Shown in pieces: positions 21,894 to 39,854 of a stretch of DNA of 64,000 nt. Every line of letters starts with the position of its first letter. Positions within the stretch are counted from its first letter, which is position 1. This stretch comes from an uncultured Porphyromonadaceae bacterium. Lineage in GTDB: Bacteria > Bacteroidota > Bacteroidia > Bacteroidales > Muribaculaceae. Below the pieces are notes generated by a model. It was not told the DNA's origin. It did not search any database and worked only from the letters and a program-made list of their open reading frames with translations. The DNA is taken from positions 1 through 64,000 of the forward strand of contig CAMWMR010000001.1 of assembly GCA_947175425.1 (NCBI GenBank). Reading direction: 5' to 3'. The translations under genes and the position numbers were made by a program.

Positions 21894-22745
21894 ATGAAAA
21901 TTATAAAGCTTACGCTTATGAGCTTTGCCGTGGCAGCTATAACTTTGTCAAGTTGCTCGGCGCCTAAAAAGGTTCCTTATTTAGTGGATGCCGACCGAAT
22001 TCCACCCGAAGTGCTTTCGGCAACAAGCTCCGTTGCCGACCCTATACTCACAGTAGGGGACTTGCTTAACATTGAAGTGACCGGCGTGAACATGGCTGCC
22101 ATGGCACCCTTTAATAAAGGCAAGTATATCGATACGGAGGGAAAAATAGGTACTATTTCGCGTACCAGCAATTCGTATAATCAAACAGGTCTTGAAGTTT
22201 CTACCGAGTACTATCTTGTTAATGCCGACGGATGTATCGAATTTCCTATTATTGGAAAAATCCGCGTTGCAGGACTAACCAAAGCACAAGTGGCATCGGA
22301 AATATGCGATGCAATTTACCCCAAATATGTTACTGAAAAGCCGTCGGTCGACATCCGTTTGATGAACTTCCGCGTAACAGTTGCCGGAGCTGTGAAGTCG
22401 CCGGGCGTTTATCAGTCTAAAAATGAACGTATGACCTTTCTGGAAGCTATTTCAATGGCCGGAGACCTGGACATTAAAGGCGACCGTGAAAATATTTTCC
22501 TTTACCGCACGAACCCCGACGGTACCCGCGAGGTACATAAGCTTAATATACACGACCGCAGCTTCCTTCTGTCGCCCTACTATACATTGCAGCAGAACGA
22601 TTACATATATGTTCAGCCTAATAAGTCGATGCGTCAGAATGCTTGGCAAATGAACCCGGCGGTAGCTTCCACAATAACCATTGTCGGTGGCATGTCGTCG
22701 CTTGCATCACTTGTTATCGGTATTGTTAACCTCACAAAGAATTAA
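21894..22745 (+). CDS. Wza-like polysaccharide export lipoprotein
   Basis: Outer-membrane polysaccharide exporter of 283 residues. The signal peptide ends at LSSC (Cys about 21), a lipoprotein site. The Poly_export domain (about 45-135; LTVGDLLNIEVTG, then GCIEFPIIGKIRVAGLTKAQV) is followed by a SLBB domain (FRVTVAGAVKSPGVYQ). A hydrophobic C-terminal segment (ASLVIGIVNL) matches the membrane helix of Wza-type exporters. It forms an operon with the downstream Wzc-like kinase 8 bp away, the usual pair for capsule or exopolysaccharide secretion. No glycosyltransferase genes are present, so the exported polymer cannot be named. Confidence 0.88.
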   Translation: MKIIKLTLMSFAVAAITLSSCSAPKKVPYLVDADRIPPEVLSATSSVADPILTVGDLLNIEVTGVNMAAMAPFNKGKYIDTEGKIGTISRTSNSYNQTGLEVSTEYYLVNADGCIEFPIIGKIRVAGLTKAQVASEICDAIYPKYVTEKPSVDIRLMNFRVTVAGAVKSPGVYQSKNERMTFLEAISMAGDLDIKGDRENIFLYRTNPDGTREVHKLNIHDRSFLLSPYYTLQQNDYIYVQPNKSMRQNAWQMNPAVASTITIVGGMSSLASLVIGIVNLTKN

Positions 22746-22753
22746 TAGTTGAT

Positions 22754-25126
22754 ATGTCCGACGAAAACCGTGAGATAAACAACAGCGAGGAAGCTTTTGA
22801 TACCACAGGCTTGCTGCTCGCTTTTCTTGAGAACTGGAAATGGTTCGTTCTCAGTGCTGTAATCTGTATTATCGCAGCCTATTTTTACATAGCATCCCAG
22901 ATTCCCGTATATCGCGTGGACGCCTCAATTTATCTTAGCGAGGATAACAACAGTTCCCGAAATACTTTTAATCTGGACGCTGCCGACCCGATGGTGGCTC
23001 TCAAAAATTATATCGACGAAACGGAACTCGAGGTTCTTAAGTCGCGTAACAATGTAATCAAGATTGTCGATTCGCTGAATCTGTCATACTCCTATTATCA
23101 AGTAGGGACTCTGCGTGATACTCCACTCTATGAGAACAACGCCATCGAAGCCCGCATGGATTCAGCGGCTTTGGTAAATCTCAAGAGTCCTATAACAATT
23201 CTTGTAAAAGAAAGCTCCGAGAACCGCTACGATGTGGATGTAAAAACATCTTTCGAAGGCGTTAAGGAGCATAAAGAGTTCAATGATGTGGAATTCCCGC
23301 TCCAGCTCGAACTTTCACATGGAAACGTAACTCTTTCGCGTTCTGCCGTTATTCCCAATTTCGAAGGAACGGAACGGATTGTAATTGAAAGCCCCAGGAG
23401 TGCAGCCTCCAAGCTGTCGGCATCCTTAAGTATTGAATTTGCCAAAAATTCAATGAAAATTATTCGCTTGAGCCTGCTTACCGATGTAAAACAGCGTGGT
23501 ATGGATATTATTGACGCGCTGTTGGATTTCTATAACCGCGACATTATTGAAGACAAGAACCGTTCGGCGGTTCAGACAGAAGCGTTTATTCTTGACCGCC
23601 TTGTAATGATCTCCGGTGAACTTCGCGATGTTGAGAACCGTCTGCAGGCTTATCGTCAGGCTCATAATGTCACCAATATCGATGCTCAGGCAAATCTTAA
23701 CCTGAGCCTTCAGAGTACCTACGAACAGCAAATGGCAAGTAACGAAGCCGATATGGCGATACTCGACGAAATCGAACGCATTGTTTCTTCCGCCGATACA
23801 TACGAAGCCTTGCCCGATGCAGTTAATAACTCTTCCATCTCTCAGAGCATTCAGCAGTACAACCAGAAAGTCGGTCGCCTTAACCGTACTTTGGAAGGCT
23901 CCACTCCCGACAATCCTCTGGTGCGCAGTATGCAGGATGAACTTTCGCGCGACAAGGTGCGAATCATTCAATCGCTTGCCACTTCGCGTCGAAATCTTAC
24001 AACTAAACGCAATTCAATCCGCAACCTTGAGAACCGCAGTTCAGGCCAACTCGCGTCGACTCCTACCGTTGACAAGGGGCTTCAGGAAATTTTCCGTGAA
24101 CAGCAGGTAAAAGTCAATATCTACACCTTCCTTCTGCAGCGTCGCGAAGAAATCGCGCTCCAAAAAACATTGGCTACCAACACCGCCCGACTCATCGACG
24201 ACCCTATCGGTACCGGCCCTGTATCTCCTCGCCGCATGTTGATTTTTATAGGTGCTTTCCTCGTCGGACTGCTTATTCCTGCCGGTGTAATATTCCTCCG
24301 CCGCCAACTATTCCCTACATTCAGTGACCAGGAAGAATTGCAGCGCCTCACAAAAGTTCCTGTACTCGGCGAAATTTGTGCCGCCGGAAGCACTAAAGGA
24401 AAAGAAATTGTTGTGGGCGAAAATGTTTCCACTCCAATAGCCGAACTCTTCCGCCTTTTACGTAATAATATCTCGTTCACCCGTTCGGGAATCGACAGCA
24501 AGGTTCTGCTCCTCACTTCGGCCATTTCCGGTGAAGGTAAAACCTTTGTGTCCACCAACCTTGCAATGACATATGCTCTCATGGGCAAAAAAGTTGTCGT
24601 TGTCGGTATGGACCTTCGCCGTCCCATGCTGGCACACCGTTTCGGTTTCTCCAACCAGAAGGGTGTTACCACTTTCCTCTCGGGACAGGAAACCAACATC
24701 GATGAATTAATTATCCGTTCAAACGATAATCCGAACCTTTATGTTCTCCCCGCCGGCCCCGTTCCCCCGAATCCTAACGAACTTCTTATGTCGGCGAATA
24801 TGGGACGATTAATGTCGCAGCTGCGCAACTCGTTCGATTACATTATAATTGACTCCGCTCCTATCGGTGTGATTTCGGATACTTTCCTCATTACACGTCA
24901 CAGCGATCTCCAGCTGTATGTTTCGCGTGCCAACTTCTCTACCAAGACAAGTCTTAAGGTTCTCCACAGTGCAATTGCAAGCAATAAGTTCTCTTCGGTT
25001 TACATAGTACTCAACGGGGTGGACATGGCTTCCAATTCGTACACCTACCGTCGCTACGGCGAGTACCGATATGGCCGAAAGAATCAAACCTACGGCTATG
25101 GATACGATTCAAAAAATACAGACTAA
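22754..25126 (+). CDS. Wzc-like polysaccharide chain-length tyrosine autokinase
   Basis: Inner-membrane co-polymerase and BY-kinase of 790 residues. The N-terminal Wzz domain is flanked by membrane helices at about 32-50 and 490-512. Its periplasmic part includes a long coiled coil (about 280-440) and a GNVR-like region. The cytoplasmic kinase has Walker A SGEGKTFVST (about 590-600), Walker A' VVVVGMDLRRP and Walker B YIIIDSAPIG. The C-terminus is a tyrosine cluster (YRRYGEYRYGRKNQTYGYGY), the expected autophosphorylation tail. With the Wza-like protein it should control export and length of a surface polysaccharide. A strong terminator follows directly. Confidence 0.92.
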   Translation: MSDENREINNSEEAFDTTGLLLAFLENWKWFVLSAVICIIAAYFYIASQIPVYRVDASIYLSEDNNSSRNTFNLDAADPMVALKNYIDETELEVLKSRNNVIKIVDSLNLSYSYYQVGTLRDTPLYENNAIEARMDSAALVNLKSPITILVKESSENRYDVDVKTSFEGVKEHKEFNDVEFPLQLELSHGNVTLSRSAVIPNFEGTERIVIESPRSAASKLSASLSIEFAKNSMKIIRLSLLTDVKQRGMDIIDALLDFYNRDIIEDKNRSAVQTEAFILDRLVMISGELRDVENRLQAYRQAHNVTNIDAQANLNLSLQSTYEQQMASNEADMAILDEIERIVSSADTYEALPDAVNNSSISQSIQQYNQKVGRLNRTLEGSTPDNPLVRSMQDELSRDKVRIIQSLATSRRNLTTKRNSIRNLENRSSGQLASTPTVDKGLQEIFREQQVKVNIYTFLLQRREEIALQKTLATNTARLIDDPIGTGPVSPRRMLIFIGAFLVGLLIPAGVIFLRRQLFPTFSDQEELQRLTKVPVLGEICAAGSTKGKEIVVGENVSTPIAELFRLLRNNISFTRSGIDSKVLLLTSAISGEGKTFVSTNLAMTYALMGKKVVVVGMDLRRPMLAHRFGFSNQKGVTTFLSGQETNIDELIIRSNDNPNLYVLPAGPVPPNPNELLMSANMGRLMSQLRNSFDYIIIDSAPIGVISDTFLITRHSDLQLYVSRANFSTKTSLKVLHSAIASNKFSSVYIVLNGVDMASNSYTYRRYGEYRYGRKNQTYGYGYDSKNTD

Positions 25127-26551: not shown

Positions 26552-29500
26552 TTAAATTACAATCTTGACGGAGTATTCACCGGCAACTGCAATATATATG
26601 CCCGAGGGAAGATTCGTGGAATATGTGTAGTTGTCGGAATCTACATATATGCGTTTAACAAGTAATCCTGCGACATTGTGTATATTTACGGTGTAACCGG
26701 CCAAGCCATTAATAACAATTGTATGATTTTCGGCATGAATTGATGTACCGGCAACCGCTGTGCTTGTTATACCGGTAAGTTCCTGATTTTCGTAGGCGCC
26801 TATGGTCGGGAATTCGGAGTGACGGTCGTTGCCCGCCATGTCGGAGCTTACTTCATTGAGTTTTGTACCCATAAAAGCGAGCTGCTTGTTGCTTTCGCTT
26901 GTAGGACGTCCGTCAGAATCCAGTTCAACATCATGGAAAACAGGACTTTCCGAAGCCCCTACCGCGCTGTTCCAGCCATTGAAGTCTACATACTCAGAGT
27001 TGAGTTTCGCGAAAGTTCCTGTTGCTCGCGACAATGAGCCGTGAGCGGCAGGGTAGTTGTTGGTTAACAGTTTAACTCCGGTAATGGCAGAATTATCTGT
27101 ACGATAAATAACTCCTGCTCCCGTATTTTGGAGAATATTGTTGGCTATTGTAAGATTTTTATAGTCCTTTGAACCAAAGTATATTACACAAGCTTTGTCA
27201 TTTTGGGCATAATCGCAGTTTATGAAACAGGTATTATGAGCTACTGTCACATCACCGTCCCAGGCGAGGCTGAAATTCTTGATGCTTAGCGCTTCGGCCT
27301 CGCCGTTTCCACGGTTGTTGATGTTTATATAATTATTGGAAATAATGTTTGTACCTGCAAAAGATGTAAGATTGATGCCGAAAACCTGAAGTATAGGGCG
27401 ACCGATAAATATGTCGGCGGCATCAACATCGGCAAGTATGGTATTGCCGTTGATATTTACATTTCCATATGTTCCATCAATGTTTATCCCTTGATAACTC
27501 CATACATTCTGCGGTGTGGCCTCACGCCCGAAGTACATCGAGTTGTTGCATATGCTTATATTATCGGTATAACGCATCTCGATATGATTGCACTGACCTT
27601 CGAAATAACAATTTTGTATGGAAATTCCATTGCTGCATGTATAGTTTTCATTGCTGAGCATTACACCGTAGTTGCCATTCATGAATACACAGTTGGCAAG
27701 GCTTATCCTGTCGTTGGACTGTGCATTTTCCAAATACATGATACGTATGTTTGTAGTGGAATAATTCATGGACTGACCTGTGAAAAACTCATTCGACACA
27801 AAGCAGCCGTCCATGGTGAAGTCGCAAGCTCCGTCGCGCAGCAGCACAGCATTTATCGGGCCGTTTTCCTGCGATACTATGGAAATATCACGGAAAGAAA
27901 CGCCTGCTACATTGTCTACTGTAACAACGCCTTTCATTGCCGCCCAATTACTGTTGTAATCGGGAAGATTCTCCTCGTAATTGTTGTAAACTATAGCCAC
28001 GGCTTCATAGTCGCCGTCCTCTCCGGCAAAAGTAATTGTGTTCATGGACGATGCGCCCTCAATGCCGGTTATATTCACACGCTCGTTATATTCGCCGGCC
28101 ATAACAGCGAAGTATACCGGGCCGTCGATACTGCGTTCCTGCATTGCGGCAACCGCAGCGCTGAATGAAGTGAAATCGCCTGAAGTGCCAATTGTATATT
28201 CTCCGTGCATGGGTGCGTTTGTATCCTCGGCGTATTCAAAAGCGCCGATAGTGGGAGCCGAAGCCCTTTCCGTACCTTCTATATCTGTTGTTACCCCGCC
28301 TATGGATACGCCTTTACCTGCAAGTGCGGCAAAGGTCGGCTCATCGGGGCGACAGCTCTCGTCAATTACATCAAAGGTTCCGGTAAAGGAAGTATTATCC
28401 GAAGGATAATCGGATACCCATTCGTCGAAGTCTTTAAAAAGACGAGCGGTTGAATACTGGTAAAAAGCAGTTCCCGAGTAAGAATATGCGTTATTGCTGA
28501 AGGACACACCGGTTACAGAAGTTCCCGCTGCGAGAAATGAGCGGTATACCGAGCCTTTGCCTTTGTTTATGAACAGATTGTTCGTAAACGAAACATTATT
28601 CATCTGTGCGGCTCCAAAGTATACAATGCTCGAGTTGTTTGATCCGTCCCACATTTCACCCGTTTCTTCAAGCACGGCAGTGTTATTGGCTACAATGATT
28701 TTTCCGTAATTGGTAGTCGGCAGCTTGAGGAAAGCCGAGGAGTATGCTCCGCCATTTACAACATGACAGGTATTGTTTGCAATAAACCCGGTGACTGCCT
28801 GGCCTGCCACGGCATTAATCATAGTCGAGCCATAGTAATAAGTGGCGTCCTCAACAACATTGGAACTGAAAGTATTTCTTATGATGTTGAATTCTCCGCC
28901 GGTATTGGTGAGGCTTATTCCGGTGTAACTGCCCAAACGAGTAGAAAAGAAACTGTTGTCGGCAATCGAAATATTCGAAATGCGAGAGAAGCTTACACCG
29001 TAGTTGCCCTCTTCGAAGCTGCAACCGCTTATTTCAATTCCTTCGGCATTTACAGTCCCGTTGCGATTCGTAAGATATACCTGTGTATCGCCGCCACTGA
29101 TTCGGGTATTGACAAGGGTAAAATAATTTGCCGGCAAATTATTCACAGTGGGCAGGCATATGGGATAGAAATAATTTCCCGAGTAGTCGTTGGACGGTTT
29201 TGTCGCCGATTCCAGATTACAGTCTCTTACTGTGCAGTATTCCGCTCCGTTCTTAAGCAGGAAAATGTCGAGAGGACCGTTTTCAGGTGTAATGAAATTC
29301 AGTCCGCTGAAAGTAAAATAGTCTGCTCCGTCCAAAGTTATGATTGCAGAAGCATCCGCAAGATTGGCAGCATAGTTCTGGACGGATGAACGGGTGGCGG
29401 AGGTTAATGTAACTTCGTCACCTTCAATAGCTTCAAAAGTTATAGTGTTAATTGCGCTTGCTCCGGGGACAGAGTTAAATATAACTTGCTCGTTATATGT

Positions 29501-29704
29501 TCCTCCTTCTACTTGAAAAGTTACCGGCCCGGAAACGCCCGACTGAACGAGTGCCGAGGCCACTTCGGAGAATGTTTTGTACTCTCCGTTGGCTCCGATT
29601 GTAAAGGTTCCCGATAACGCTCCGGCCTGCGCCGAGAGTGTGCTCGTGGCTGCCGTTGTTAGCATTATGCTTACTGCGGCAATGTTTAATTGCTTTAATT
29701 TCAT
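26552..29704 (-). CDS. Double beta-helix exported protein with T9SS-like C-terminus
   Basis: Large secreted protein of 1050 residues, last gene of the riboswitch operon. A signal peptide (about 1-25, ending LSAQ) is followed by two homologous ~470-residue right-handed beta-helix units. The first begins GTFTIGANGEYKTFSEVASA (about 30) and the second GEYTIGTSGDFTSFSAAVAA (about 498). Both continue with G-x-Y-N-E-x-V and a conserved NTITF. The coils are Asn-rich (repeated N-N-x-F/Y, G-N-Y-G-V). The last ~75 residues (VNIHNVAGLLVKR, then LPSGIYIAVAG) resemble a type A T9SS sorting domain. Only 33 bp separate it from the upstream gene. Beta-helices often bind or cleave carbohydrate, but no catalytic motif is recognised. 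Confidence 0.82.
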   Translation of the reverse strand: MKLKQLNIAAVSIMLTTAATSTLSAQAGALSGTFTIGANGEYKTFSEVASALVQSGVSGPVTFQVEGGTYNEQVIFNSVPGASAINTITFEAIEGDEVTLTSATRSSVQNYAANLADASAIITLDGADYFTFSGLNFITPENGPLDIFLLKNGAEYCTVRDCNLESATKPSNDYSGNYFYPICLPTVNNLPANYFTLVNTRISGGDTQVYLTNRNGTVNAEGIEISGCSFEEGNYGVSFSRISNISIADNSFFSTRLGSYTGISLTNTGGEFNIIRNTFSSNVVEDATYYYGSTMINAVAGQAVTGFIANNTCHVVNGGAYSSAFLKLPTTNYGKIIVANNTAVLEETGEMWDGSNNSSIVYFGAAQMNNVSFTNNLFINKGKGSVYRSFLAAGTSVTGVSFSNNAYSYSGTAFYQYSTARLFKDFDEWVSDYPSDNTSFTGTFDVIDESCRPDEPTFAALAGKGVSIGGVTTDIEGTERASAPTIGAFEYAEDTNAPMHGEYTIGTSGDFTSFSAAVAAMQERSIDGPVYFAVMAGEYNERVNITGIEGASSMNTITFAGEDGDYEAVAIVYNNYEENLPDYNSNWAAMKGVVTVDNVAGVSFRDISIVSQENGPINAVLLRDGACDFTMDGCFVSNEFFTGQSMNYSTTNIRIMYLENAQSNDRISLANCVFMNGNYGVMLSNENYTCSNGISIQNCYFEGQCNHIEMRYTDNISICNNSMYFGREATPQNVWSYQGINIDGTYGNVNINGNTILADVDAADIFIGRPILQVFGINLTSFAGTNIISNNYININNRGNGEAEALSIKNFSLAWDGDVTVAHNTCFINCDYAQNDKACVIYFGSKDYKNLTIANNILQNTGAGVIYRTDNSAITGVKLLTNNYPAAHGSLSRATGTFAKLNSEYVDFNGWNSAVGASESPVFHDVELDSDGRPTSESNKQLAFMGTKLNEVSSDMAGNDRHSEFPTIGAYENQELTGITSTAVAGTSIHAENHTIVINGLAGYTVNIHNVAGLLVKRIYVDSDNYTYSTNLPSGIYIAVAGEYSVKIVI

Positions 29705-29737
29705 TGATTTAAATGAAGTGTAGTTGTGTGATAATGT

Positions 29738-31183
29738 TTATCGTATAATAATTTTCTTGAATTGTTGACCTCTTTTCTCAATGTATATCCCTGCTTTTTC
29801 CGGCTTTTTGCTGCCAAAGTAAATGCCTTGGATTGAAAAATATTGTGTGTCGACTTCTTCTGCACTGTCGGGCAAAACAGTGACGCTGCCGCTTTGCTGT
29901 TCGGGAAAGAATGGCAACGATGGAAACCAGTAGTTCTCAATCATCGGGTATTCGGCAATAATCTTGCCATCGCTCGAATAGCGGCGTGTAATGTATGCAG
30001 TTGATTGATTGTCGTGATACAGCGAACAGTATATCTCTCCGCTGACAGGGTGAGGGCGCATGGAGCAGCCGTAAATATGCCAGTTGTTACCGTCCTCGCC
30101 GGTATCAATGAGTTTGCCGAATGTATGGGATGTATAGTTATATTTCCATATTATATCGCCGCCGAACCATCGGTCGCCTCCTCGCCAATAAATTTCATCA
30201 AGGAGAGGAGAGGATGAAAACGTATCGGGAGTCCATGCATACCATGAGCTTGCCGGAGCCTGAATATCGGCGGGAATACTTATTGGAGTGACATCCAATG
30301 AATAAGGGTTTATCTTAAACACGACAGGAAAACTTTCGCCCGTTCCGTTTATGTTTGCCGATAACGATGCCCATACAGTTCCGCTGCGATCGGTAATTAC
30401 AGCTCCCACGCCGGGGGCGCATTCTTCCAAGCTTGCATAGCCGGCTTCTATATCTTCCAAATCTTCAACTGTTGGTTGCCACAGATTCGAATCCATGAGA
30501 GCTTTTGCTATAGATACCGTTGTTTCCAAAGAGTCGTCGGTCGGGTCTATAACCAGTATACCGGAGCTTTGATGTGCTGCAAATACTCGGTCTGCGCTCA
30601 AAACCATTGTCCCGGTCTGTCCGTGATAGAGTGCCGAACCCGGATTTATGGACGGCAATGAATTATCGCCGGCATTTGGATTGTCGGTACCGGGAATTTT
30701 TCGGATAACGGACATCGATTCCAAATTCAGTACCCAAATACCGTTGGAACTGCTCACATACCCTTTTTGGGAATCTATGCCAAGAAATGCACGCCCGTCG
30801 CACATAGCACCGCTGTCGTCTATTTTTTCTATTTGGGCAAGAACCGAAAGAGTTTTTGCATCAGCTACGGTAATTCGTCCGCCCGTAACTGTTGAGCCCG
30901 GATCCTTTGCCTGTTTTGAAATAAAATAAATACGGTTGCCGTAGATTGCGGCATATTGTGTTGTGCATCCGAGTTCATAGCCCGGATTTTCCTTTTGGAA
31001 AGCGCGATAGGTCCAATATGCTCCGTCTGTCGCCTCGGGATTGAGATGGTTCACAGTAGAATTGTGATGTCCGTACCAATCCTCATTTACAATAAAAACA
31101 CCTTTGGTATAGTCAACTTCAGCGTAGACATTGCCGCATATCAAGGCCGAAAGAACAAGTACGGAAATACGATGTTTTTTCAT
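29738..31183 (-). CDS. DUF5074-type beta-propeller exported protein
   Basis: Exported protein of 481 residues, third gene of the riboswitch operon. The signal peptide (MKKHRISVLVLSALICGNVYA) appears to be SPI type, since the Cys lacks a proper lipobox. The body (about 28-430) has the NEDWYGHHN start and repeated blade-like segments (VADAKTLSVLAQI, then VLNLESMSVIRKIPG, then VIDPTDDSLETTVSI) of a YncE/DUF5074 propeller. It ends in a short sorting-like tail (YFSIQGIYFG, then AGIYIEKRGQQFKKIIIR). I infer similarity to the B12-binding surface propeller BtuG from fold and riboswitch control. The start at 31183 overlaps the upstream stop by 4 bp, so translation is coupled. Confidence 0.82.
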   Translation of the reverse strand: MKKHRISVLVLSALICGNVYAEVDYTKGVFIVNEDWYGHHNSTVNHLNPEATDGAYWTYRAFQKENPGYELGCTTQYAAIYGNRIYFISKQAKDPGSTVTGGRITVADAKTLSVLAQIEKIDDSGAMCDGRAFLGIDSQKGYVSSSNGIWVLNLESMSVIRKIPGTDNPNAGDNSLPSINPGSALYHGQTGTMVLSADRVFAAHQSSGILVIDPTDDSLETTVSIAKALMDSNLWQPTVEDLEDIEAGYASLEECAPGVGAVITDRSGTVWASLSANINGTGESFPVVFKINPYSLDVTPISIPADIQAPASSWYAWTPDTFSSSPLLDEIYWRGGDRWFGGDIIWKYNYTSHTFGKLIDTGEDGNNWHIYGCSMRPHPVSGEIYCSLYHDNQSTAYITRRYSSDGKIIAEYPMIENYWFPSLPFFPEQQSGSVTVLPDSAEEVDTQYFSIQGIYFGSKKPEKAGIYIEKRGQQFKKIIIR

Positions 31184-34100
31184 TTTACTGTAATTTTTGA
31201 AGAGGATTGTCCGCATACTGCAACATATACACCGGGCATGAAATCGACTGTTTGGCTGTACAAATCGTCGGCGGGTATGAGTTTAAGTACGTTTACTCCG
31301 GTAACAGAATAGATGTTGACTTCCTTGCCAAGGCAATTATCACAAACCAGTTGTCCCGAGTTGTATACTATTCGAGGTGTCTTGCTTTCAGGAGCTTCGG
31401 CGCTTGTAAGATTGTGGACAGTTACAGGAATCACTGTATCGCTTACTCGTCCTCCCGAGTAACTGCGCAGAGTAAACTCCGAACTTCCTTCTTTATTTGG
31501 AATAACAGTAAGCCGCTTGCCTTCGAGGCGTACACTTGCTGCAGGTTCTTCATTGTCGTAAACCAATGGAGTATCTATAATCTCAAAGCGTATGTTAGCG
31601 TCAATTCCGGAAGGGTCACTGACGAGTTCCGCAAGATTTAATTCAAGAGGCTCGTAGGGCTTATAGAAATTAATCTCGTCTATATCGTGCTCAACAACAT
31701 TTTCGTGTTGAGGGAAAACCGGTGTGGCGGGGAACCAATAGTAGCGTCGGGCTTCAATCTCGTTGTCAAGTCTGCCTGTTTTTACATCTACAAAATTATA
31801 ATAGGTGTAGCTGTAGAGAGAACTGCCGGAGAAAGTTGAGGCATAAACCCACTGTCCGGTCGCATCGTTATATGCCCCCGTTCCATATGGGCTGTCGGTG
31901 TAATTGGAGCTGAGGAACGGCAAGCTGCGACCGGCATGGGTATAAATTAGCTGTTTCTGTTTTGTATCGATGTTATATGAATAGAGCGATTTTCCACTCA
32001 TCCAATAAAGAATGTTTTCTTTTTTTGCGGCGCTGAAACTTGTGGATCGCCAAGTATCCCATGAACATGTGATGTACACATTTTCAACGGTTTCAAGTTC
32101 CTCGAGACTTTCGGCGTCATAACAAACAAGGCGGTTGCCGTCCTGTGCAACCCATATATTTCCATCCATGCTTTGCACTATGCCATGAGGTGTGCAGGGT
32201 AGTATTGTGACGAATTTGTCAGTAGCCACGTCAATTACCACAACACCTGTGCCCTGAAGCAAAACAAACAGATGTTCGGGAGTACATACCATATCTCCGA
32301 ATTGTTTTGAATAGAGATCCGATGAATCCATGCCCTCAATTTCAATATCAACGGCATTGCCGAGAACATGGGTGTTGAAATAGTAAGGGGTTATGGCATG
32401 AGCCGCTCCAAGGTATATTTTTTCGTGATTGGCTCCGGCACATGCACGGCCGTCTCCGTTGACACTTGTAAGGCTGAATTCCCGTTTAAGAGTGTTTGCA
32501 TCGGCTTGAACCATACATCCGCCTCCGTTATTTCGCTTGTCTCCCTTGTCGTTCGCCTGTTTGGACATTATAAACAGTTTGTCGCCCCATACGGTGCCGT
32601 ATTGCGATGTCGCGCCCAAAGCCTGCCACGGGTTATGCGCCTCGTATACTCGATACTTGATCCTCCCGTCGTTTCCTATAAAATTAATTGAACCGTTAGT
32701 GTGGGTGTACCAGTCCTCGTTCAACCACAGAAATCCTTCGCGATATTCATTTTGCAAAGCGGGAGTACGGTCCGGGGTATCAACCATTACTCGATAAACA
32801 GGGCTTACGACTTCGGAACCATCGGTAGCTTTCAATTGTAAAGTAAAAGTTCCCGTTTTGTGAGTTACGAGTTCGGGATAGCGGGGGAGTGTGTAGCCAT
32901 ATGCAGTCACTGTATACGTTGAAGCGATTGTGTTGTCGCTGATTATAACATCGAAATCCTTTTGCTCTGCATTTTCCGGCAGGATAAGCGGCTTGAGCCC
33001 AAGTATACCCATGTAAGGAATATGGATATAGCCGTCGTTGTCTGTCGGCTCCTCTAAGGTGATTGATGTTACGGGATTGGCAGGAGTGACATTTACAACA
33101 AAACTTGCACGTATGGTATTGTCGGCATCATATATTGCCGTAATAGTTGATTTTCCCGGAGCGCAGCCCGTAACTGTTCCATTGTTGTCAACTTTGGCAA
33201 TGGTCGCATTGGAACTTGTCCATGTGAATTTTAGATAGCTTGCATCGGCCGGTACGGGTTCCGGAGCAATTGTGGAGCTTTGGCCGCATACAATATCTGT
33301 TTCGGCCTGAGAGAAGCTTATTGAAGTGAGCGGAATACGAGGTCCCGAGACTGTAATGGCGAGCTTGGCGTTTATTGACGGAAGCGCCGTTGCACTTGCC
33401 GTAAGTGTGGCAGTTCCCGGTCGTAAAGGAGTGATAATTCCTGTATTTTCATCAAATGAAACGGAGTTACTGCCCGTAAGAGTATATTTAACAGGCTCTG
33501 CCATTGCCTGTTCCGTAGAATATCCTTGGGCTGCTGTACGAATCAGATTTGTTTCAAAGTCTTCGCCCAAAGGAAGATTTATCTCCGACGGGACATAGCT
33601 TAATGCCGCCAGCGCACAATCCACTTTTTTAACGGTTATAGTACCCATAAATGGTGCAACGGGACTTGTGGAGCTTCCATAATACTTTGTGCCGTTTTTA
33701 TAGCTGACCATAACATTTACCGAGCCTTCGGCTTTAGGAACAATCGTATGCCACAAAGATTTAGCATTTGCCGGAGAACCCGCAGTGGCTGCTGTTCCGA
33801 GTTTGTTGCTTGTGGTAAGCACATTTGTGTTTGATGTTACAATGCGGTTCGGATTATTGCCTGTTCCGGGCGCTGCAGTTGTGGTTGCAGCCTTATAGGC
33901 TACGATATGGAAAGGAAGCGCCGCTTCTGTGTCCGAGCTTAGAATCTCCATGTCGGGAATGTAACAGCCGAGCGAGCTTTCATCGGAATATTCGGGCGCA
34001 TAGAATACGTAGGGCAAATCTCCCGCAGGTAAATCTCCTCCGAATTCTATATGAAGAATATCTCCGGACATCATTACTTCGTCCATGTCAACTTCGCCCG

Positions 34101-34578
34101 TAATACCGTTTCTTTCAATGAAGAAGTGCCAGGAAACATTATCGGATTCTACCTGCCACTTGTCGCTGTCGTAAGTCGATGTCAGAGTAGAGTAGGAATC
34201 GGTTTCCAGCTGCCCGTCGGTGAGAGTAAGGTACGAGCCGTTCAGTTTTGGACGTGCATTGTGATTTCGTCGGAGATAAACTGCGAAACTCAATGCTTTC
34301 AGCTCATTGTTGGCAGTAACTGCGAAAACGCGCACGTCCTCCTTGGCAAGTGTCTGCAAAGCCTGGCGCGGAGTAGTCTGTCCAGCGAATCTGTATCCCC
34401 ATACAATGTTGTCGATGTTATGCAGATGATCGGGCTGCGTTTCGTTCCATTTGACAATTATAGCCGAAGTTGCATCGCCGGCTCCGACGTAATGACGGAT
34501 TTTTGAAAAATCGACCGTCTTAGCCGACGATGACAACGCGGCAACGCAGAAAAATATAATAATGAAAAACTTATTCAT
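31180..34578 (-). CDS. Multi-domain surface protein: WGYRF module, Ig-like, DUF5074 propeller
   Basis: Exported protein of 1132 residues, second gene of the riboswitch operon. After an SPI signal peptide (about 1-19) comes an N-terminal module (about 22-240) with WGYRFAG at 60-66, shared with the first gene's product. Three Ig-like/BIG2-type domains follow (about 300-600; LTSISFSQAETDIVCGQSS, then VTGCAPGKSTITAIY). The DUF5074 propeller (about 610-950) contains LNEDWYTHTNGS, paralogous to NEDWYGHHN in the third gene. A further Ig-like region and a sorting-like tail (VNIYSVTGVNVLKL, then PGVYVAVCG) end it. It overlaps the preceding gene by 8 bp. I infer a surface corrinoid-binding role, untested. 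Confidence 0.82.
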   Translation of the reverse strand: MNKFFIIIFFCVAALSSSAKTVDFSKIRHYVGAGDATSAIIVKWNETQPDHLHNIDNIVWGYRFAGQTTPRQALQTLAKEDVRVFAVTANNELKALSFAVYLRRNHNARPKLNGSYLTLTDGQLETDSYSTLTSTYDSDKWQVESDNVSWHFFIERNGITGEVDMDEVMMSGDILHIEFGGDLPAGDLPYVFYAPEYSDESSLGCYIPDMEILSSDTEAALPFHIVAYKAATTTAAPGTGNNPNRIVTSNTNVLTTSNKLGTAATAGSPANAKSLWHTIVPKAEGSVNVMVSYKNGTKYYGSSTSPVAPFMGTITVKKVDCALAALSYVPSEINLPLGEDFETNLIRTAAQGYSTEQAMAEPVKYTLTGSNSVSFDENTGIITPLRPGTATLTASATALPSINAKLAITVSGPRIPLTSISFSQAETDIVCGQSSTIAPEPVPADASYLKFTWTSSNATIAKVDNNGTVTGCAPGKSTITAIYDADNTIRASFVVNVTPANPVTSITLEEPTDNDGYIHIPYMGILGLKPLILPENAEQKDFDVIISDNTIASTYTVTAYGYTLPRYPELVTHKTGTFTLQLKATDGSEVVSPVYRVMVDTPDRTPALQNEYREGFLWLNEDWYTHTNGSINFIGNDGRIKYRVYEAHNPWQALGATSQYGTVWGDKLFIMSKQANDKGDKRNNGGGCMVQADANTLKREFSLTSVNGDGRACAGANHEKIYLGAAHAITPYYFNTHVLGNAVDIEIEGMDSSDLYSKQFGDMVCTPEHLFVLLQGTGVVVIDVATDKFVTILPCTPHGIVQSMDGNIWVAQDGNRLVCYDAESLEELETVENVYITCSWDTWRSTSFSAAKKENILYWMSGKSLYSYNIDTKQKQLIYTHAGRSLPFLSSNYTDSPYGTGAYNDATGQWVYASTFSGSSLYSYTYYNFVDVKTGRLDNEIEARRYYWFPATPVFPQHENVVEHDIDEINFYKPYEPLELNLAELVSDPSGIDANIRFEIIDTPLVYDNEEPAASVRLEGKRLTVIPNKEGSSEFTLRSYSGGRVSDTVIPVTVHNLTSAEAPESKTPRIVYNSGQLVCDNCLGKEVNIYSVTGVNVLKLIPADDLYSQTVDFMPGVYVAVCGQSSSKITVK

Positions 34579-35575
34579 TGTCGCGAATTAATATTTTATA
34601 ATAGTTGGAACCTTGTTTTACAATGTATAAACCCTTGCGATTCGGGCGGCACGGGCGCCCCGATATGTCATAGTATTCTTTGGGCTGGTCACAATCCGTG
34701 GAGACCGGACTTGTTATAATGTCGGTTATGTTATCATCATCGCTGTCGAAATCGAAATGGTGATAGTCAATTTCCTTATAAAGTGATGTGTGGGGGATGT
34801 AACCGTCCGGAACATCGGAGTCTCGCTGTAAAAATGTGAAACAGAGAGCCACAACCGAGCCGTTCTCTACGGGCAGGGAACTTATACCTACTCCGGAGAA
34901 TGAGAGCCTGCGCAGATTCTCTCCACCATGCCAGAGTGCCCAAAAGCCATCGTACCAGCCCGATTGCCAATAAAGGTCCTGATAAGCGAACATTCTGAAA
35001 TCTTCACAACCCCAATGGTCGTAGTCATATGCCGGGTAACCGTACGCCGGATAATTCAGCGGATGTTCAATAACGTGAGTATTCCGTGCTTCATCAATAG
35101 CGTCAGTACATATTTGAGGAGTGTCGTATCCCGGACGCCCTTCGCCGAACCACTGAAAAGACACTTTACCGTCGTTTCGGGCGCCGTCGAAGTCATATTC
35201 AATCATATCCAGAGCTTCGTGTTCGTAGCTGAAAGCCGCTCCGCAAAATGTATATCCCAATTCACCGGTATTTTGCAGCATTACATCAAGGTCATGACTC
35301 GCCGAGGCAATATCGCGAATCATCTGTTCGGCACTTACAGTACCTGAGAACCGATACCCCCAGGCATAAGCGACCGGGGAAGCAATGTAATCTTCGTAAT
35401 CTGCCACAGTTGAATCGAACTGAATGACAAGTGCGGCAGTATTCTCGCCTTCGCCGGCAAATCGTTCCAGTTTGTCCCATTCAAGCAAGTACAGTTCCGC
35501 GCGAGTGCAGGGAGTTATGCCTGCTATAAAAAGTAGCGCGCAAAATAATTTATTGTTTATAAATGACATAAGCAT
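34571..35575 (-). CDS. Exported protein with WGYRF module, first gene of B12 operon
   Basis: Secreted or surface protein of 334 residues, first gene after the cobalamin riboswitch. The signal peptide ends about residue 26 (CTRA). One module follows (about 28-265) with GEGENTAALVIQFD and WGYRFSG at 72-78, clearly homologous to the N-terminus of the next protein. It is rich in Tyr, Trp and Asp (YPAYGYPAYDYDHWG). After an acidic linker (FDFDSDDDNITD), it ends in a sorting-like tail (YYDISGRPCRPNRKGLYIVK). No enzyme motif is seen. An in-frame ATG at 35569 is an alternative start. The riboswitch suggests a role in cobalamin or corrinoid acquisition. Confidence 0.8.
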   Translation of the reverse strand: MLMSFINNKLFCALLFIAGITPCTRAELYLLEWDKLERFAGEGENTAALVIQFDSTVADYEDYIASPVAYAWGYRFSGTVSAEQMIRDIASASHDLDVMLQNTGELGYTFCGAAFSYEHEALDMIEYDFDGARNDGKVSFQWFGEGRPGYDTPQICTDAIDEARNTHVIEHPLNYPAYGYPAYDYDHWGCEDFRMFAYQDLYWQSGWYDGFWALWHGGENLRRLSFSGVGISSLPVENGSVVALCFTFLQRDSDVPDGYIPHTSLYKEIDYHHFDFDSDDDNITDIITSPVSTDCDQPKEYYDISGRPCRPNRKGLYIVKQGSNYYKILIRDNE

Positions 35576-35598
35576 ACCATTGCATTAATGATTGACAC

Positions 35599-35634
35599 AA
35601 AAAAATCCCCGTTCAGCATGCCGCCGGACGGGGA
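35599..35634 (-). terminator. Intrinsic terminator in riboswitch leader
   Basis: On the minus strand, TCCCCGT pairs with ACGGGGA across a 15-nt loop, followed by seven T. It lies between the cobalamin aptamer and the first start codon, so it can act as the expression platform. No T tract follows on the plus strand, so it faces the operon only. Confidence 0.82.
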
Positions 35635-35654
35635 AATGGTATGAATAAATACGA

Positions 35655-35673
35655 TGGGAACATAATGTACCCA
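35655..35673. repeat. 19-bp imperfect palindrome in riboswitch leader
   Basis: TGGGAACATAATGTACCCA reads nearly the same on both strands, with one mismatched pair. It lies between the aptamer and the terminator, so it could be part of the antiterminator, an extra stem or an operator. Confidence 0.4.
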
Positions 35674-35729
35674 ACGAATTTTGTCATTAATAAATACCAT
35701 AGCCCATAATCCCGCAGGCTTTTTCAGGG

Positions 35730-35935
35730 GGTGATAACAAGGCCGGTATTCTGACTCGTTTCGGCTTCGCGACGCCTTCTCGGGGAAGTCCCAATGACTT
35801 TATGTCGCGAGCTTGTTTTGAAACTTACAGCAGCGGGTACTGTTGTGGATTTTCACCACATTCCCTAAAGCGGCAGAATGAATCTTCCGCTTTTCCCATG
35901 GCACCACCTCTGTGGTTCGGGAACCTTGTAACACC
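35730..35935 (-). ncRNA. Cobalamin riboswitch
   Basis: A full AdoCbl-class aptamer is read on the minus strand. The conserved core AGGGAATGTGGTGAAAATCC (35866-35847) is followed by CCGCTGCTGTAA, then ACTTCCCCGAGAAGG, and the B12 box GTCAGAATACCGGCC (35755-35741). A closing helix P1 is formed by GGTGTTACAAGG (35935-35924) and CCTTGTTATCACC (35742-35730). It precedes a terminator and the four-gene surface-protein operon, which should be turned off when cobalamin is plentiful. Confidence 0.95.
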
Positions 35936-35936
35936 G

Positions 35937-35967
35937 CAAAGGTAGGTATAATATTCCGAATGACAAA
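35937..35967 (-). promoter_or_regulatory. Promoter of the cobalamin-riboswitch operon
   Basis: On the minus strand, TTTG (35967-35964) and TACCTTTG (35944-35937) are 19 bp apart, an exact match to the Bacteroidota -33/-7 arrangement. Transcription would begin about where aptamer helix P1 begins. Confidence 0.82.
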
Positions 35968-36105: not shown

Positions 36106-37011
36106 ATGATTACACGACTGACACAAATCGTAGACGAAGCCCGCAAACGCGGTCGCAAACGTCTTGCCGTTGCTTTTGGCAATGATTCCCACACTCTTAG
36201 TGCCGTGTACAAGGCATGGGAAGAAGGCTTGGTTGAACCCACTGTATATGGCGATAAAGCCGAAATACTAAGGGTATGTAAAGAGGAAGGCTTCGACCCC
36301 ACGGTATTCTCTGTTGTAGATGAAAAAAACGATGTGCGGTGTGTTGAACTGGCCGTTGCGCTGGTTGCAAGCGGTGGTGCCGATGTACTGATGAAAGGAC
36401 TGGTTTCCACCGATAAATACATGCGTGGAATCCTCAACAAAGAAGCCGGTCTGTTTCCCCCCAAGGGTACTCTAAGCCATGTTTCTGTGGTTGAACTTCC
36501 CGGTCGCGAGAAGTTGCTCTGTGTGGCCGATGTGGCGGTTATCCCCGCTCCCGATTTCAAACAAAAAATGCAATTGGTTAAATATCTCACCACTATTGCC
36601 AATTCATTAGGTGTTGAAATGCCGCGTATTGCGGCCATTGCTCCGTCCGAGCAGGTACTTCCTGCCGTACCGTCTTCCACCGAAGGTGCTTTGCTGGCAA
36701 AGATGGCCGATCGCGGGCAGCTTGGCAAGCTTGTTCTTGACGGACCCTTGTCGTTGGACGTAGCGTTATATAAGGAAGCCGCTATAGAAAAGAAAGTAAA
36801 AGGCTCGCAGGTTGCCGGTGAAGCCGACTGTCTCCTTTTCCCGAATATAGAATCGGGTAACGTTTTCTTTAAGTCGGCAACTCACTTCGGCGGAGCGGAA
36901 ATAGCTGCAATTGTAGTGGGTACACGTGTTCCGTGCGTGCTTACTTCGCGTGGCGATACTCCGCGAACAAAGCTGTACTCCATAGCACTTGCATGCTTGC
37001 AGGTTAAATAA
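36106..37011 (+). CDS. ptb: Phosphate butyryltransferase
   Basis: Ptb converts butyryl-CoA (or a branched short-chain acyl-CoA) and phosphate to the acyl phosphate. The 301-residue protein has the PTA/PTB fold: GGADVLMKGLVSTDKYMR for phosphate/CoA contact, GTLSHVSVVELPG, and the C-terminal PNIESGNVFFK followed by GTRVPCVLTSRGDTP typical of the family. The length fits Ptb, being shorter than multi-domain Pta. The adjacent butyrate kinase gene 10 bp downstream supports the assignment over phosphate acetyltransferase. Together they make ATP from butyryl-type CoA esters. True substrate chain length is uncertain. Confidence 0.9.
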   Translation: MITRLTQIVDEARKRGRKRLAVAFGNDSHTLSAVYKAWEEGLVEPTVYGDKAEILRVCKEEGFDPTVFSVVDEKNDVRCVELAVALVASGGADVLMKGLVSTDKYMRGILNKEAGLFPPKGTLSHVSVVELPGREKLLCVADVAVIPAPDFKQKMQLVKYLTTIANSLGVEMPRIAAIAPSEQVLPAVPSSTEGALLAKMADRGQLGKLVLDGPLSLDVALYKEAAIEKKVKGSQVAGEADCLLFPNIESGNVFFKSATHFGGAEIAAIVVGTRVPCVLTSRGDTPRTKLYSIALACLQVK

Positions 37012-37021
37012 CGTATCGGTT

Positions 37022-38242
37022 ATGGCCTACAAGATATTAGCTATTAATCCTGGTTCTACCTCCACCAAAATTGCCGTCTATACCGACGACCACCCCGATT
37101 TTACTCTTTCCATAGATCATGCGCCCGAGGATCTTGCTCAATTTGCAAGTGTGGTGGAACAGTATAACTGGCGTAAAGATTTAATTGAAACGGCTCTTGC
37201 TGATAACGGAATAAACATTCGCGATTTTTCCGCCATTATTGGCAGAGGAGGGATTGTAAGCCCCATAGAAAGCGGCGTATACGAAGTTAACGATGACCTT
37301 GTGTACGATCTGCAGCGGGCTCGTATGCAGCACGCTTCAAACCTAGGAGGCCTGATAGCCCGCGATATCGCCGATGAAATAGGTGTAAAGGCCTATATTG
37401 CCGATCCTGTAGTGGTGGATGAAATGATGCCATATGCAAGAATAAGCGGTCTTCCCGAGCTCCCTCGCGAATCGGTGTTCCATGCACTTAACCAAAAAGC
37501 TGTTGCAAGGCTGTTTGCAAAAGAGAACGGCAAGAATTACGAGGATCTTAACCTTATTGTATGCCACATGGGTGGCGGTTGCACCGTGAGTGCCCACCGG
37601 CGCGGGCGAGTCGTGGATACGACAAATGCTCTTGACGGATGCGGCCCGTTCTCGCCCGAACGTTCAGGCTCATTGCCTCCCGGACCGCTGATTCATCTGT
37701 GTTTCAGCGGAAAATATACCGAAGAAGAACTTATTAAAAAGGTTCATGGGGCCGGCGGACTTGTTGCGCATCTCGGAACAACATCTGTTCCCGAAGTGCT
37801 CGACAGAATCCAGAATCACGATTTGCATGCCATGCTCGTTCTCCGCGCAATGTGTTATACCATTTGCAAGGAGATTGGCTCGATGGCTGTGGCAATGAAA
37901 GGCGATGTGGATGCCATTCTGCTTACAGGTGGCATTGCGCACAGCAAGCGTGTGACCGATTTCATTGCCGACCATGTGGCCTATATAGCGCCTATTTATG
38001 TATATCCGGGTGAAAATGAGTTACGTGCATTGGCAGGAAATGCTCTTGCCGTGCTTCGTGGAGAACGCATACCAAAGGAATACAAACGAGAGGCCTACGA
38101 CGACCCCTCACAGATTAATAATGTGGAGCGTCCCTCCAAGCTGCGCGATGCCCTTCTCGGCATAATCAATCCTCAGGCGAATGCAAAACCGCTTTCCGCA
38201 ATACGTCAGTATCTGCGCAAGTGGAGCAAGACCCGTAAATAA
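37022..38242 (+). CDS. buk: Butyrate kinase
   Basis: ASKHA-superfamily acid kinase of 406 residues, converting acyl phosphate plus ADP to the acid plus ATP. The phosphate-binding N-terminal motif is ILAINPGSTSTKIAVY. GRGGIVSPIESGVYEVN, HMGGGCTVSAHRRGRVVD and the C-terminal ILLTGGIAHSKRV are standard Buk features. The start at 37022 (MAYKIL) follows ptb by 10 bp; an upstream in-frame Met lies inside ptb and is unlikely. The C-terminus is about 45 residues longer than minimal Buk and basic (RKWSKTRK). A stem-loop follows at 38248-38278. Confidence 0.92.
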   Translation: MAYKILAINPGSTSTKIAVYTDDHPDFTLSIDHAPEDLAQFASVVEQYNWRKDLIETALADNGINIRDFSAIIGRGGIVSPIESGVYEVNDDLVYDLQRARMQHASNLGGLIARDIADEIGVKAYIADPVVVDEMMPYARISGLPELPRESVFHALNQKAVARLFAKENGKNYEDLNLIVCHMGGGCTVSAHRRGRVVDTTNALDGCGPFSPERSGSLPPGPLIHLCFSGKYTEEELIKKVHGAGGLVAHLGTTSVPEVLDRIQNHDLHAMLVLRAMCYTICKEIGSMAVAMKGDVDAILLTGGIAHSKRVTDFIADHVAYIAPIYVYPGENELRALAGNALAVLRGERIPKEYKREAYDDPSQINNVERPSKLRDALLGIINPQANAKPLSAIRQYLRKWSKTRK

Positions 38243-38307: not shown

Positions 38308-38856
38308 ATGGGCAAATTCGTCAGAACAATTTTCAACTTTTCTCAAGTCTACCGGATGCATATTCGCGAATTCGAACGTAATTTCAAGTCATTATATCTT
38401 CCTCTCGGAATGTACGCATTAAGGCTGACAAGGGATCCGGATATCGCGGAAGACCTTGTTCAGGAGGCTTTTGTACGAGCGTGGGAGTTGATGAAGGAGG
38501 GGAAAGAAATATCCGCTTTCAAAGCATGGATGTATCGTTGTGTACATAATTCCTGCATTGACCGTATGCGTTGTAATAGCAGTTGTTTGCCTATTCTCGA
38601 GAACTTTGATGTGGAGCAGGAAGATATTGATACTTCCGAACGCGATGCAGCCGTATGGAAAGCCATCGATGAGCTTCCGGAACGTTGTCGCCACATTTTC
38701 TTGATGAGCAAACGCGACGGATTGAGTAACGAGGAAATTGCAGTTGAGTTGGGACTATCGGTTAAAACAGTCAAAAACCAGCTAACCAAAGCTTTGAGCC
38801 GATTGCGGGAATCGCTCGGCAAAGGACGTAAACCGTTTTTTCTTCCTTTTTTGTAA
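38308..38856 (+). CDS. ECF-type RNA polymerase sigma factor
   Basis: Alternative sigma factor of up to 182 residues. Region 2 contains LGMYALRLTRDPDIAEDLVQ and AWMYRCVHNSCIDRMR. Region 4 contains LPERCRHIFLMSKRDGLSNE and the helix-turn-helix NEEIAVELGLSVKTVKNQL. The group is that of Bacteroidota FecI-like sigmas controlled by FecR-like anti-sigmas and TonB receptors. The downstream genes fit this: barrel protein, short anti-sigma, STN-type receptor and DUF4249 lipoprotein. The ATG at 38356 (MHIREFERN) matches the usual N-terminus and is a strong alternative start. The last 42 codons lie in a 364-bp tandem duplication, so a second copy of the C-terminus exists at 39095-39220. Confidence 0.9.
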   Translation: MGKFVRTIFNFSQVYRMHIREFERNFKSLYLPLGMYALRLTRDPDIAEDLVQEAFVRAWELMKEGKEISAFKAWMYRCVHNSCIDRMRCNSSCLPILENFDVEQEDIDTSERDAAVWKAIDELPERCRHIFLMSKRDGLSNEEIAVELGLSVKTVKNQLTKALSRLRESLGKGRKPFFLPFL

Positions 38857-39458
38857 AAAAATTGATTTTGGAGTAGGACTTTTGGGCTTTCATTCCGTCA
38901 CAAGGATAGAAACAAACAATAAACCTTGTCACATGAAGCTTAAATTATTACTTCCGGCGCTATCCTTGCTCGCAGCAATGTGTGCCGATGCGCGAATGCC
39001 CGAGAAAGGCTATCGCGGTTTTGTTGAAAACAGTATCGATTTCCGTAAAGAACCGGGATTCTTCAAGGATATTAATGCCTTGTACTCCGGATTTGAGGAA
39101 ATTGCAGTTGAGTTGGGACTATCGGTTAAAACAGTCAAAAACCAGCTAACCAAAGCTTTGAGCCGATTGCGGGAATCGCTCGGCAAAGGACGTAAACCGT
39201 TTTTTCTTCCTTTTTTGTAAAAAAATTGATTTTGGAGTAGGACTTTTGGGCTTTCATTCCGTCACAAGGATAGAAACAAACAATAAACCTTGTCACATGA
39301 AGCTTAAATTATTACTTCCGGCGCTATCCTTGCTCGCAGCAATGTGTGCCGATGCGCGAATGCCCGAGAAAGGCTATCGCGGTTTTGTTGAAAACAGTAT
39401 CGATTTCCGTAAAGAACCGGGATTCTTCAAGGATATTAATGCCTTGTACTCCGGATTT
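38731..39458 (+). repeat. Exact 364-bp tandem duplication
   Basis: Two head-to-tail copies, 38731-39094 and 39095-39458, look base-for-base identical by eye. Each runs from inside region 4 of the sigma gene, through the intergenic stretch, to about codon 54 of the barrel-protein gene. Bases flanking the outer ends and the joint share no microhomology. Either a very recent duplication or an assembly artefact would explain perfect identity. Confidence 0.95.
38933..39220 (+). pseudogene. Chimeric ORF created by the tandem duplication
   Basis: This 95-codon frame starts with the signal peptide and first ~54 codons of the barrel protein (MKLKLLLPALSLLAAMCADA), then runs in frame into the last 42 codons of the sigma factor (EEIAVELGLSVKTVKNQL and on). 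The parent genes remain intact on each side. The product would be an exported signal peptide joined to a DNA-binding helix-turn-helix, which makes no evident sense. I therefore treat it as a duplication by-product rather than a gene. Confidence 0.85.
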
Positions 39459-39854
39459 ACAACTTCGCACGGTTACCAGATTAACCAAATGTTTTTTGTA
39501 GGCGCCGGTCTGGGGGTTGAATACAGTAATAACATGGAAAACTGGTATATCCCCCTGTTTTTGCAAGGACGTGCCGATTTCAAATTCGGCAAATTCACTC
39601 CTTTCGGCGATATCCGCTTCGGTTATAACCTGTCACAAGGCACGGGTATATACTTCTCACCTTCCGTAGGCTATCGTTTTAACTGGGGACGAAAAGTTGG
39701 AATAAATGTTGGAGCAGGAATGAGTCTCATGGGGTACTCCGTGGAGATGTATACTGTTGGAATTGGTCAGGATGGTTACGCCACTTACCAATATCTTGGC
39801 ACAAAGCATAAGGTGAAGCCTAATTTCAGTTTCAGGGTAGGAATCGACTTTTAA
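39297..39854 (+). CDS. Outer membrane beta-barrel protein in sigma-factor locus
   Basis: Small predicted outer-membrane barrel of 185 residues. The signal peptide ends at about residue 18-20 (MCADA). Alternating strands follow, such as QINQMFFVGAGLGVEYS, FTPFGDIRFGYNL and YFSPSVGYRFNW, and it closes with FSFRVGIDF, a typical last strand. The ATG at 39297 gives a normal signal peptide; the longer TTG-initiated frame is rejected. Its first ~54 codons are in the tandem duplication. It sits between the sigma gene and the anti-sigma-like gene (3 bp before the latter), so it may be part of the regulated envelope response. Function is unknown. Confidence 0.8.
   Translation: MKLKLLLPALSLLAAMCADARMPEKGYRGFVENSIDFRKEPGFFKDINALYSGFTTSHGYQINQMFFVGAGLGVEYSNNMENWYIPLFLQGRADFKFGKFTPFGDIRFGYNLSQGTGIYFSPSVGYRFNWGRKVGINVGAGMSLMGYSVEMYTVGIGQDGYATYQYLGTKHKVKPNFSFRVGIDF

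Follow-up and report, generated by a model that had tools for sequence, protein, structure and literature searches.

A 64,000-nucleotide stretch of DNA from an uncultured Porphyromonadaceae bacterium placed by GTDB in the Muribaculaceae (assembly GCA_947175425.1, contig CAMWMR010000001.1, positions 1-64,000; hereafter the window) encodes, behind a cobalamin riboswitch, a minus-strand operon of four proteins, named here P1 to P4. The favoured explanation, with a probability of about two in three, is that P1, P2 and P3 form an exported cobamide-capture arm of the vitamin B12 (B12) uptake system of the host, feeding BtuG and BtuB. The riboswitch, a conserved operon, fold resemblances to B12-binding proteins, sorting-like tails and components of the matching secretion machinery are shown by computation.

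Regulatory region and operon layout

The cobalamin aptamer (RF00174) is full length, and its 83.9 bits exceed the family's gathering score of 31.5; it is the sole Rfam match within the window at gathering scores. At its upstream end lies an exact match to TTTG-N19-TAnnTTTG, which we take to be the Bacteroides promoter consensus; this pattern occurs twice in the window against 0.26 expected, and 2 of 100 shuffles reach two matches. The hairpin with a run of seven T at 35633-35599, between the aptamer and P1, is likely the OFF switch of the riboswitch; it was not among the listings of a generic terminator scan.

The P1 and P2 open reading frames (ORFs) overlap by 8 bp and P3 is separated from P4 by 33 bp, while the overlap of P2 and P3 is 4 bp from the in-frame ATG at 31183 or 37 bp from the upstream ATG at 31216. 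The start at 31183, which gives a protein of 481 amino acids (aa), is likely the correct one and yields a typical signal peptide. An initial annotation of this DNA had described an aptamer, a promoter and a terminator in front of a minus-strand operon with overlaps of 8 and 4 bp and a gap of 33 bp; this description is borne out, the 4-bp overlap given the P3 start at 31183, and the cobalamin regulation that it proposed is supported by the sequence.

Table 1. Features of the P1-P4 operon and its regulatory region (positions in the window)
Feature	Position	Strand	Details
Promoter TTTG-N19-TAnnTTTG	35937..35967	-	exact match to consensus
Cobalamin riboswitch aptamer	35723..35943	-	RF00174, 83.9 bits, positions 1-189/189
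Intrinsic terminator between aptamer and P1	35599..35633	-	hairpin + T7, -18.7 kcal/mol
P1	34571..35575	-	ORF, 334 aa; putative signal peptide, predicted transcobalamin-beta-domain-like domain with helical insert, type IX tail
P1 transcobalamin / intrinsic factor beta-domain-like domain (predicted)	34829..35452	-	residues 42-249; model numbering one less
P1 type IX sorting-like tail	34574..34687	-	hhalign 95.8% to TIGR04183 tails of own genome
P2	31180..34578	-	ORF, 1132 aa; P1-like N-terminal segment, Big_2, DUF5074 propeller, type IX tail
P2 Big_2 Ig-like domain	33127..33327	-	56.6 bits
P2 DUF5074 propeller	31711..32739	-	276 bits; best PDB match BtuK1 9s6c, 3.5e-9
P3	29738..31216	-	ORF, 492 aa; DUF5074 propeller, type IX tail
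P3 DUF5074 propeller	29903..31105	-	profile match 347 bits and fold match
P3 type IX sorting-like tail	29741..29896	-	hhalign 96.6%
P4	26552..29704	-	ORF, 1050 aa; repeat protein, type IX tail
P4 type IX tail (TIGR04183 / DUF6383)	26555..26725	-	TIGR04183 24.3 bits, cut-off 23, six-frame genome search

BtuK-like propellers of P2 and P3

Both P2 and P3 contain a DUF5074 propeller scoring above the family cut-off of 27.2 bits. The fold of P3 was compared by VIA-align, a re-alignment of the top 1000 Foldseek matches, in addition to the profile matches, and BtuK1, BtuG1-3 and BT1487 ranked ahead of every protein without a B12 link. Of these proteins, BtuK1 (BT_1486, PDB 9s6c) of Bacteroides thetaiotaomicron, described as binding cobalamin (PMC12751083), is nearest to P2 and P3 in sequence and fold, nearer than BtuG. 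The two DUF5074-type propellers resembling BtuG that were initially annotated are real (276 and 347 bits) and of the BtuG type by fold match, seen for P3, and by profile match; that BtuK1 is the closest protein had been missed.

Compared with BtuG1-3, P2 and P3 show distant sequence similarity (hhalign 44% and 15%) and no lipobox, and the same genome encodes a separate BtuG. They differ from BtuK1, a predicted lipoprotein, in carrying type IX tails, and P2 has in addition an Ig-like domain and an N-terminal domain, the first block of which matches P1 at 97.9%. By sequence and fold, P2 and P3 class as BtuK-like propellers with no predicted lipid anchor. Another accessory B12 binder described in riboswitch loci, frequently near PF16819 (DUF5074) genes, is BtuJ (DUF4465) (PMC13398666); P1, P2 and P3 are likewise accessory genes in B12 riboswitch loci, whereas BtuJ has a jelly-roll fold and is a predicted lipoprotein in B. 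thetaiotaomicron, and none of P1 to P4 has a DUF4465 match.

A predicted transcobalamin-like domain in P1

P1 contains a domain that is predicted, from its structural model, to fold like the beta-domain of transcobalamin and intrinsic factor. Indeed, (i) the 14 best VIA rows for the model against known structures are all mammalian cobalamin carriers, (ii) the first 17 Foldseek rows are mammalian cobalamin carriers plus 3u7z, and (iii) the predicted model has a beta-hairpin after the helix, which is described as a mark of the transcobalamin-like clade of SLBB domains (PMC1796856). The hosts of this clade that are named in that survey of 2007 are animals, low-GC Gram-positives, planctomycetes and euryarchaea. 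With the beta-domain of transcobalamin, intrinsic factor and haptocorrin, which belongs to this clade, P1 shares 9-14% identity and no sequence-profile match; unlike the animal carriers, it has no alpha/alpha toroid but a helical insert of ~80 residues and a type IX tail. The conserved insert of P1 carries GYPAYDYDxW / GWYxGYW. No Pfam family matches P1 above its cut-off, and an assignment to DUF4465/BtuJ or to another Pfam domain was rejected for this reason. PF28005 is precomputed on some P1 homologues and was absent from the Pfam scans made here. The sorting-like tail and signal-peptide-like start of P1 had been recognized earlier, and the predicted transcobalamin-like domain had been missed.

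Signal-peptide-like N-termini and sorting-like tails

The C-terminal tails were compared by hhalign with TIGR04183 tails of the same genome, those of P1, P2 and P3 as profiles of 60-74 sequences. The reference consisted of 17 of the 22 TIGR04183-matching tails of the genome (the tail of P4 itself and four others were left out), 4 of the 17 scoring below the curated cut-off. The tails of P2 (98.0%) and P4 (81.1%) match this reference, as do those of P1 and P3 (Table 1), whereas control tails from the same loci reach 1.5% (BtuG), 0.1% (BtuH) and 0.3% (BtuB). A simple tail pattern is found in 63/65 P1, 66/73 P2-type and 68/72 P3 sequences, against 0/69 for BtuG, 0/72 for BtuH and 0/64 for BtuB. 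Curated tail models are passed by the P3-type proteins of two loci outside the family (L207 and L212) and by the BtuH proteins of two (L207 and L209).

In the first 40 residues of P1 to P4, no lipobox was found by a crude pattern, and the N-termini were read by eye as signal-peptide-like. This pattern, which finds 65/68 BtuG yet only 42/70 BtuH, fires in 2/72 P2 and 2/73 P3 homologues. Of the type IX machinery, the genome encodes PorV (505.8 bits), PorU (494.1 bits) and SprA/Sov (618.4 bits), all above cut-off, and a search of the 31 genomes that carry P1 found Sov in 28. The non-lipoprotein N-termini and the C-terminal sorting-like domains of all four proteins, which the initial annotation had described in proposing type IX secretion, are supported, and PorU, PorV and Sov are present as that proposal requires.

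The anchor may vary among relatives. In one genome (G245) Sov was not found, and the homologues of P1 and of the propellers start like lipoproteins and lack a tail match; conversely, in three loci of two other GTDB families (L207, L208 and L209), BtuH has a non-lipoprotein start and a type IX tail, judged by eye in L208. These cases suggest that a given module may be anchored either by lipid or by a type IX tail, which a broader crude test across the P1 family (below) did not bear out. Among the literature matches listed (titles and abstract starts, with few subscription papers covered), type-IX-exported B12 binders were not found.

Conservation among relatives

Of 149 genomes of the family, 73 match P1 at E 1e-3; 31 were kept at <=3.9e-29, and the 42 that were dropped match mostly by the common C-terminal tail only and in some cases by a short segment near the N-terminus or in the middle. 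In the 31 genomes, the P1 homologue lies in a frame of at most 388 aa (19 genomes) or forms the N-terminal part of a P2-type frame of at least 984 aa (12 genomes). In 26 of them, a cobalamin riboswitch precedes P1 by 148 to 10,883 bases on the same contig and strand, and in the remaining five the contig ends upstream of P1.

Among the best 80 of 144 loci from named genomes, many of which are shared with the 31, the gene order BtuB-BtuG-BtuH-P1-P2-P3 is found in 52, and P2 stands ahead of P1 in five. btuH is present in 74 loci, and five of the six others are cut by sequence ends; in the sixth (L120), a 90-bit riboswitch stands directly before P1-P2-P3, a second case of the arrangement of the window. 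A riboswitch search in 14 loci, six of them among the best 80, found the element in five loci; of the nine misses, eight have short flanks (L172-L179) and one (L105) starts within btuB. Downstream of P3, one locus (L052) has PF01497, FecCD, ABC and DUF2284 genes according to Pfam, and the ORFs of another (L045) match its PF01497-FecCD-ABC genes in size, sizes alone having been compared. In L117, an Rfam FopS small RNA (RF04319; 16699-16765) lies directly downstream of the B12 operon.

Outside the family, a P1 profile search of 295 genomes of the order gave 27 matching genomes at 1e-10, two of them within the family, and the seven best outside it were examined. All seven loci, from five GTDB families, hold P1-type genes together with a cobalamin aptamer, btuB, btuG and btuH, with ten aptamers in total. 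A second riboswitch stands ahead of the P1-type gene in L210 and L211 and, in L212, inside the cluster directly ahead of a gene with a P1 domain and a propeller; a P1-type gene heading its own riboswitch unit therefore recurs in at least three families.

Other B12 genes of the genome

The genome, of 2.5 Mb in 64 contigs with the window on contig 1, has its nearest protein and locus relatives under Muribaculaceae names. It contains three cobalamin riboswitches, namely that of the P1-P4 operon, one on contig C16 followed by a BtuG lipoprotein and a PKD-BtuH lipoprotein, and one on contig C20 followed by a BtuB (432 bits to BtuB1 of B. thetaiotaomicron). The single FecCD match of the genome (BtuC-type) is on contig C17, adjoining an ORF that resembles an ABC ATPase by eye. 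btuB, btuG and btuH, which share one operon with P1 in relatives, are absent from the P1-P4 operon, and neither they nor the FecCD/ABC pair lie within the window. Since btuB and btuG-btuH are under two further riboswitches, the P1-P4 operon does not stand alone but makes up, with these, a set of three units under cobalamin control; the earlier statement that BtuB is missing is correct for the window but not for the genome, which also has the FecCD/ABC pair. Within the genus, a clear P1 is present in 16 of 49 genomes, and BtuH is just upstream of P1 in seven of eight loci (L172-L179), the sequence of L178 ending before that position; the three-unit split in the genome of the window is therefore probably derived from a single ancestral operon. 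A fourth DUF5074 match (C7:2769-3359, minus strand, 45.5 bits, in a 395-aa frame) lies outside the three riboswitch loci.

P4 and neighbouring genes

P4 is probably co-transcribed with P1-P3 because of the 33-bp gap to P3. Its tail scores 27.6 bits for DUF6383 and, in a whole-protein scan, 17.7 bits for TIGR04183, below the cut-off. No P4 homologue was found in the 80 related B12 loci, and its relatives at E 1e-20 are in 12 other genomes of the 149, all outside the set of 31 with P1. P4 was therefore rejected as a B12 protein and appears to be a local addition outside the conserved B12 set; the four-protein capture system initially annotated is reduced to P1-P3, no further B12 link having been found for this repeat protein.

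The 3' end of the operon abuts a tyrosine recombinase (PF13102, PF00589; 25157-26476, plus strand), and no evidence was found that this integrase moved the P1-P4 module. It is preceded by two ORFs (21894-25126) resembling, by eye, the polysaccharide export proteins Wza and Wzc. On the other side, two ORFs that diverge from the riboswitch promoter (36106-38242, plus strand) resemble, by eye, a phosphate butyryltransferase and a butyrate kinase. In the region 38308-39854 (plus strand), the ORF 38882-39220 shares its N-terminus with 39246-39854 and its C-terminus with 38308-38856, which is either a tandem duplication or an assembly artefact.

Proposed function and alternatives

We infer the following course of switching, binding, export and transfer of cobamide by the P1-P3 system. 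When cobalamin is scarce, the riboswitch would let transcription pass the terminator, and when it is plentiful, transcription would stop. In type IX secretion, proteins pass through Sov/PorV, lose their tail to PorU and are fixed on the surface or released; P1-P3 would take this route across the outer membrane after crossing the inner membrane by Sec. Judging from the predicted folds and the neighbouring genes, corrinoids would be bound by P3 and by the propeller of P2 in the manner of BtuK1, and by P1 through its predicted transcobalamin-beta-domain-like fold. The cobamide would then be handed to BtuG/BtuH, to BtuB and to an inner-membrane ABC importer. In the lineage of the window, the ancestral operon would have been broken into three riboswitch units, leaving P1-P3 alone with P4 behind them. 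By analogy, the P1-P3 set may work like BtuK/BtuG, with P1 resembling one half of the animal carriers.

Several observations, on binding and on export, weigh against this explanation. With regard to binding, the best Foldseek E value of P1 is only 0.19 and its fold link comes from the model alone; P1 has no sequence match in Pfam or PDB to any cobalamin carrier; the second block of the P2 N-terminal domain matches P1 at 0.6% only; and BtuK2, which is BtuK1-like, is described as showing no cobalamin binding (PMC12751083). P1-P3 could belong to the B12 regulon without binding cobamide and instead have a part in vesicle release, in scaffolding or in adhesion, like BtuL, which is described in the same source as promoting vesicle release and, like BtuK2, as not binding cobalamin; the Ig-like domain of P2 would suit such a role. 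This is considered unlikely, as the closest structure to P3 is BtuK1, a binder, the P1 model resembles another cobalamin-binding fold, and the gene company is retained in five further families.

With regard to export, the tails of P1-P3 of the window fall singly below the TIGR04183 cut-off, and the P1-type tail of L207 scores 18.0 against a cut-off of 23. The crude lipobox pattern fires in 10/66 P1 homologues, and the 31 P1 genomes include three in which Sov was not found; two of these are well assembled and 95-99% complete, so that either there are gaps or the dependence on Sov is not strict. Nor did a crude test within the P1 family bear out that lipobox and tail exclude each other, as it found no association (p 0.66; 132 of 134 proteins scored), although at least three of the six proteins with both (P0244, P0250 and P0253) look like spurious tails and in P0032 a lipobox was probably missed. 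The tails might thus not be type IX signals, P1-P3 being periplasmic or bound to the surface by another route; beside the tail profiles, the control tails and the machinery described above, this is rather improbable.

Capture of another scarce ligand needed alongside B12, such as a corrinoid precursor, another tetrapyrrole or a siderophore, is less probable again. Siderophore-binding surface propellers are described (XusB, PMC13142918), as are various possible ligands of SLBB domains (PMC1796856), but the loci contain BtuB, BtuG, BtuH and a cobalamin riboswitch. BtuG2 itself is described as binding cobinamide (PMC10404256), so that a corrinoid precursor as ligand would be compatible with an exported cobamide-capture arm. 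Finally, the initial annotation, sound in its observed features, had drawn from the lack of btuB in the operon and among its neighbours the idea of a corrinoid trap that is confined to the surface, is sufficient in itself and has no transporter dedicated to it; this is hardly credible and was rejected, since BtuB, BtuG and BtuH under cobalamin riboswitches and the FecCD/ABC pair are encoded on other contigs and most relatives with uncut loci hold all genes in one operon.

Gut communities are shaped by competition for B12, and in B. thetaiotaomicron the accessory binders of this vitamin are lipoproteins as far as the sources cited here describe them. If P1-P3 are indeed an exported cobamide-capture arm, type IX export would give the Muribaculaceae and further families another means of displaying such binders. 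The orphan domain P1 would then become, on the strength of its model, a likely cobamide binder and a bacterial counterpart, within B12 operons, of the domain that holds B12 in animal carriers. More tentatively, and somewhat short of an even chance, Bacteroidales with type IX secretion may run a second, lipid-free surface cobamide route made of BtuK-like propellers and of an undescribed Bacteroidota branch of the transcobalamin type, the same modules exchanging a lipid anchor for a type IX tail, or the reverse, depending on which secretion machinery the host has. Released copies of P1-P3 could in that case carry corrinoids outside the cell, by analogy with haemophores and with the human gut carriers.

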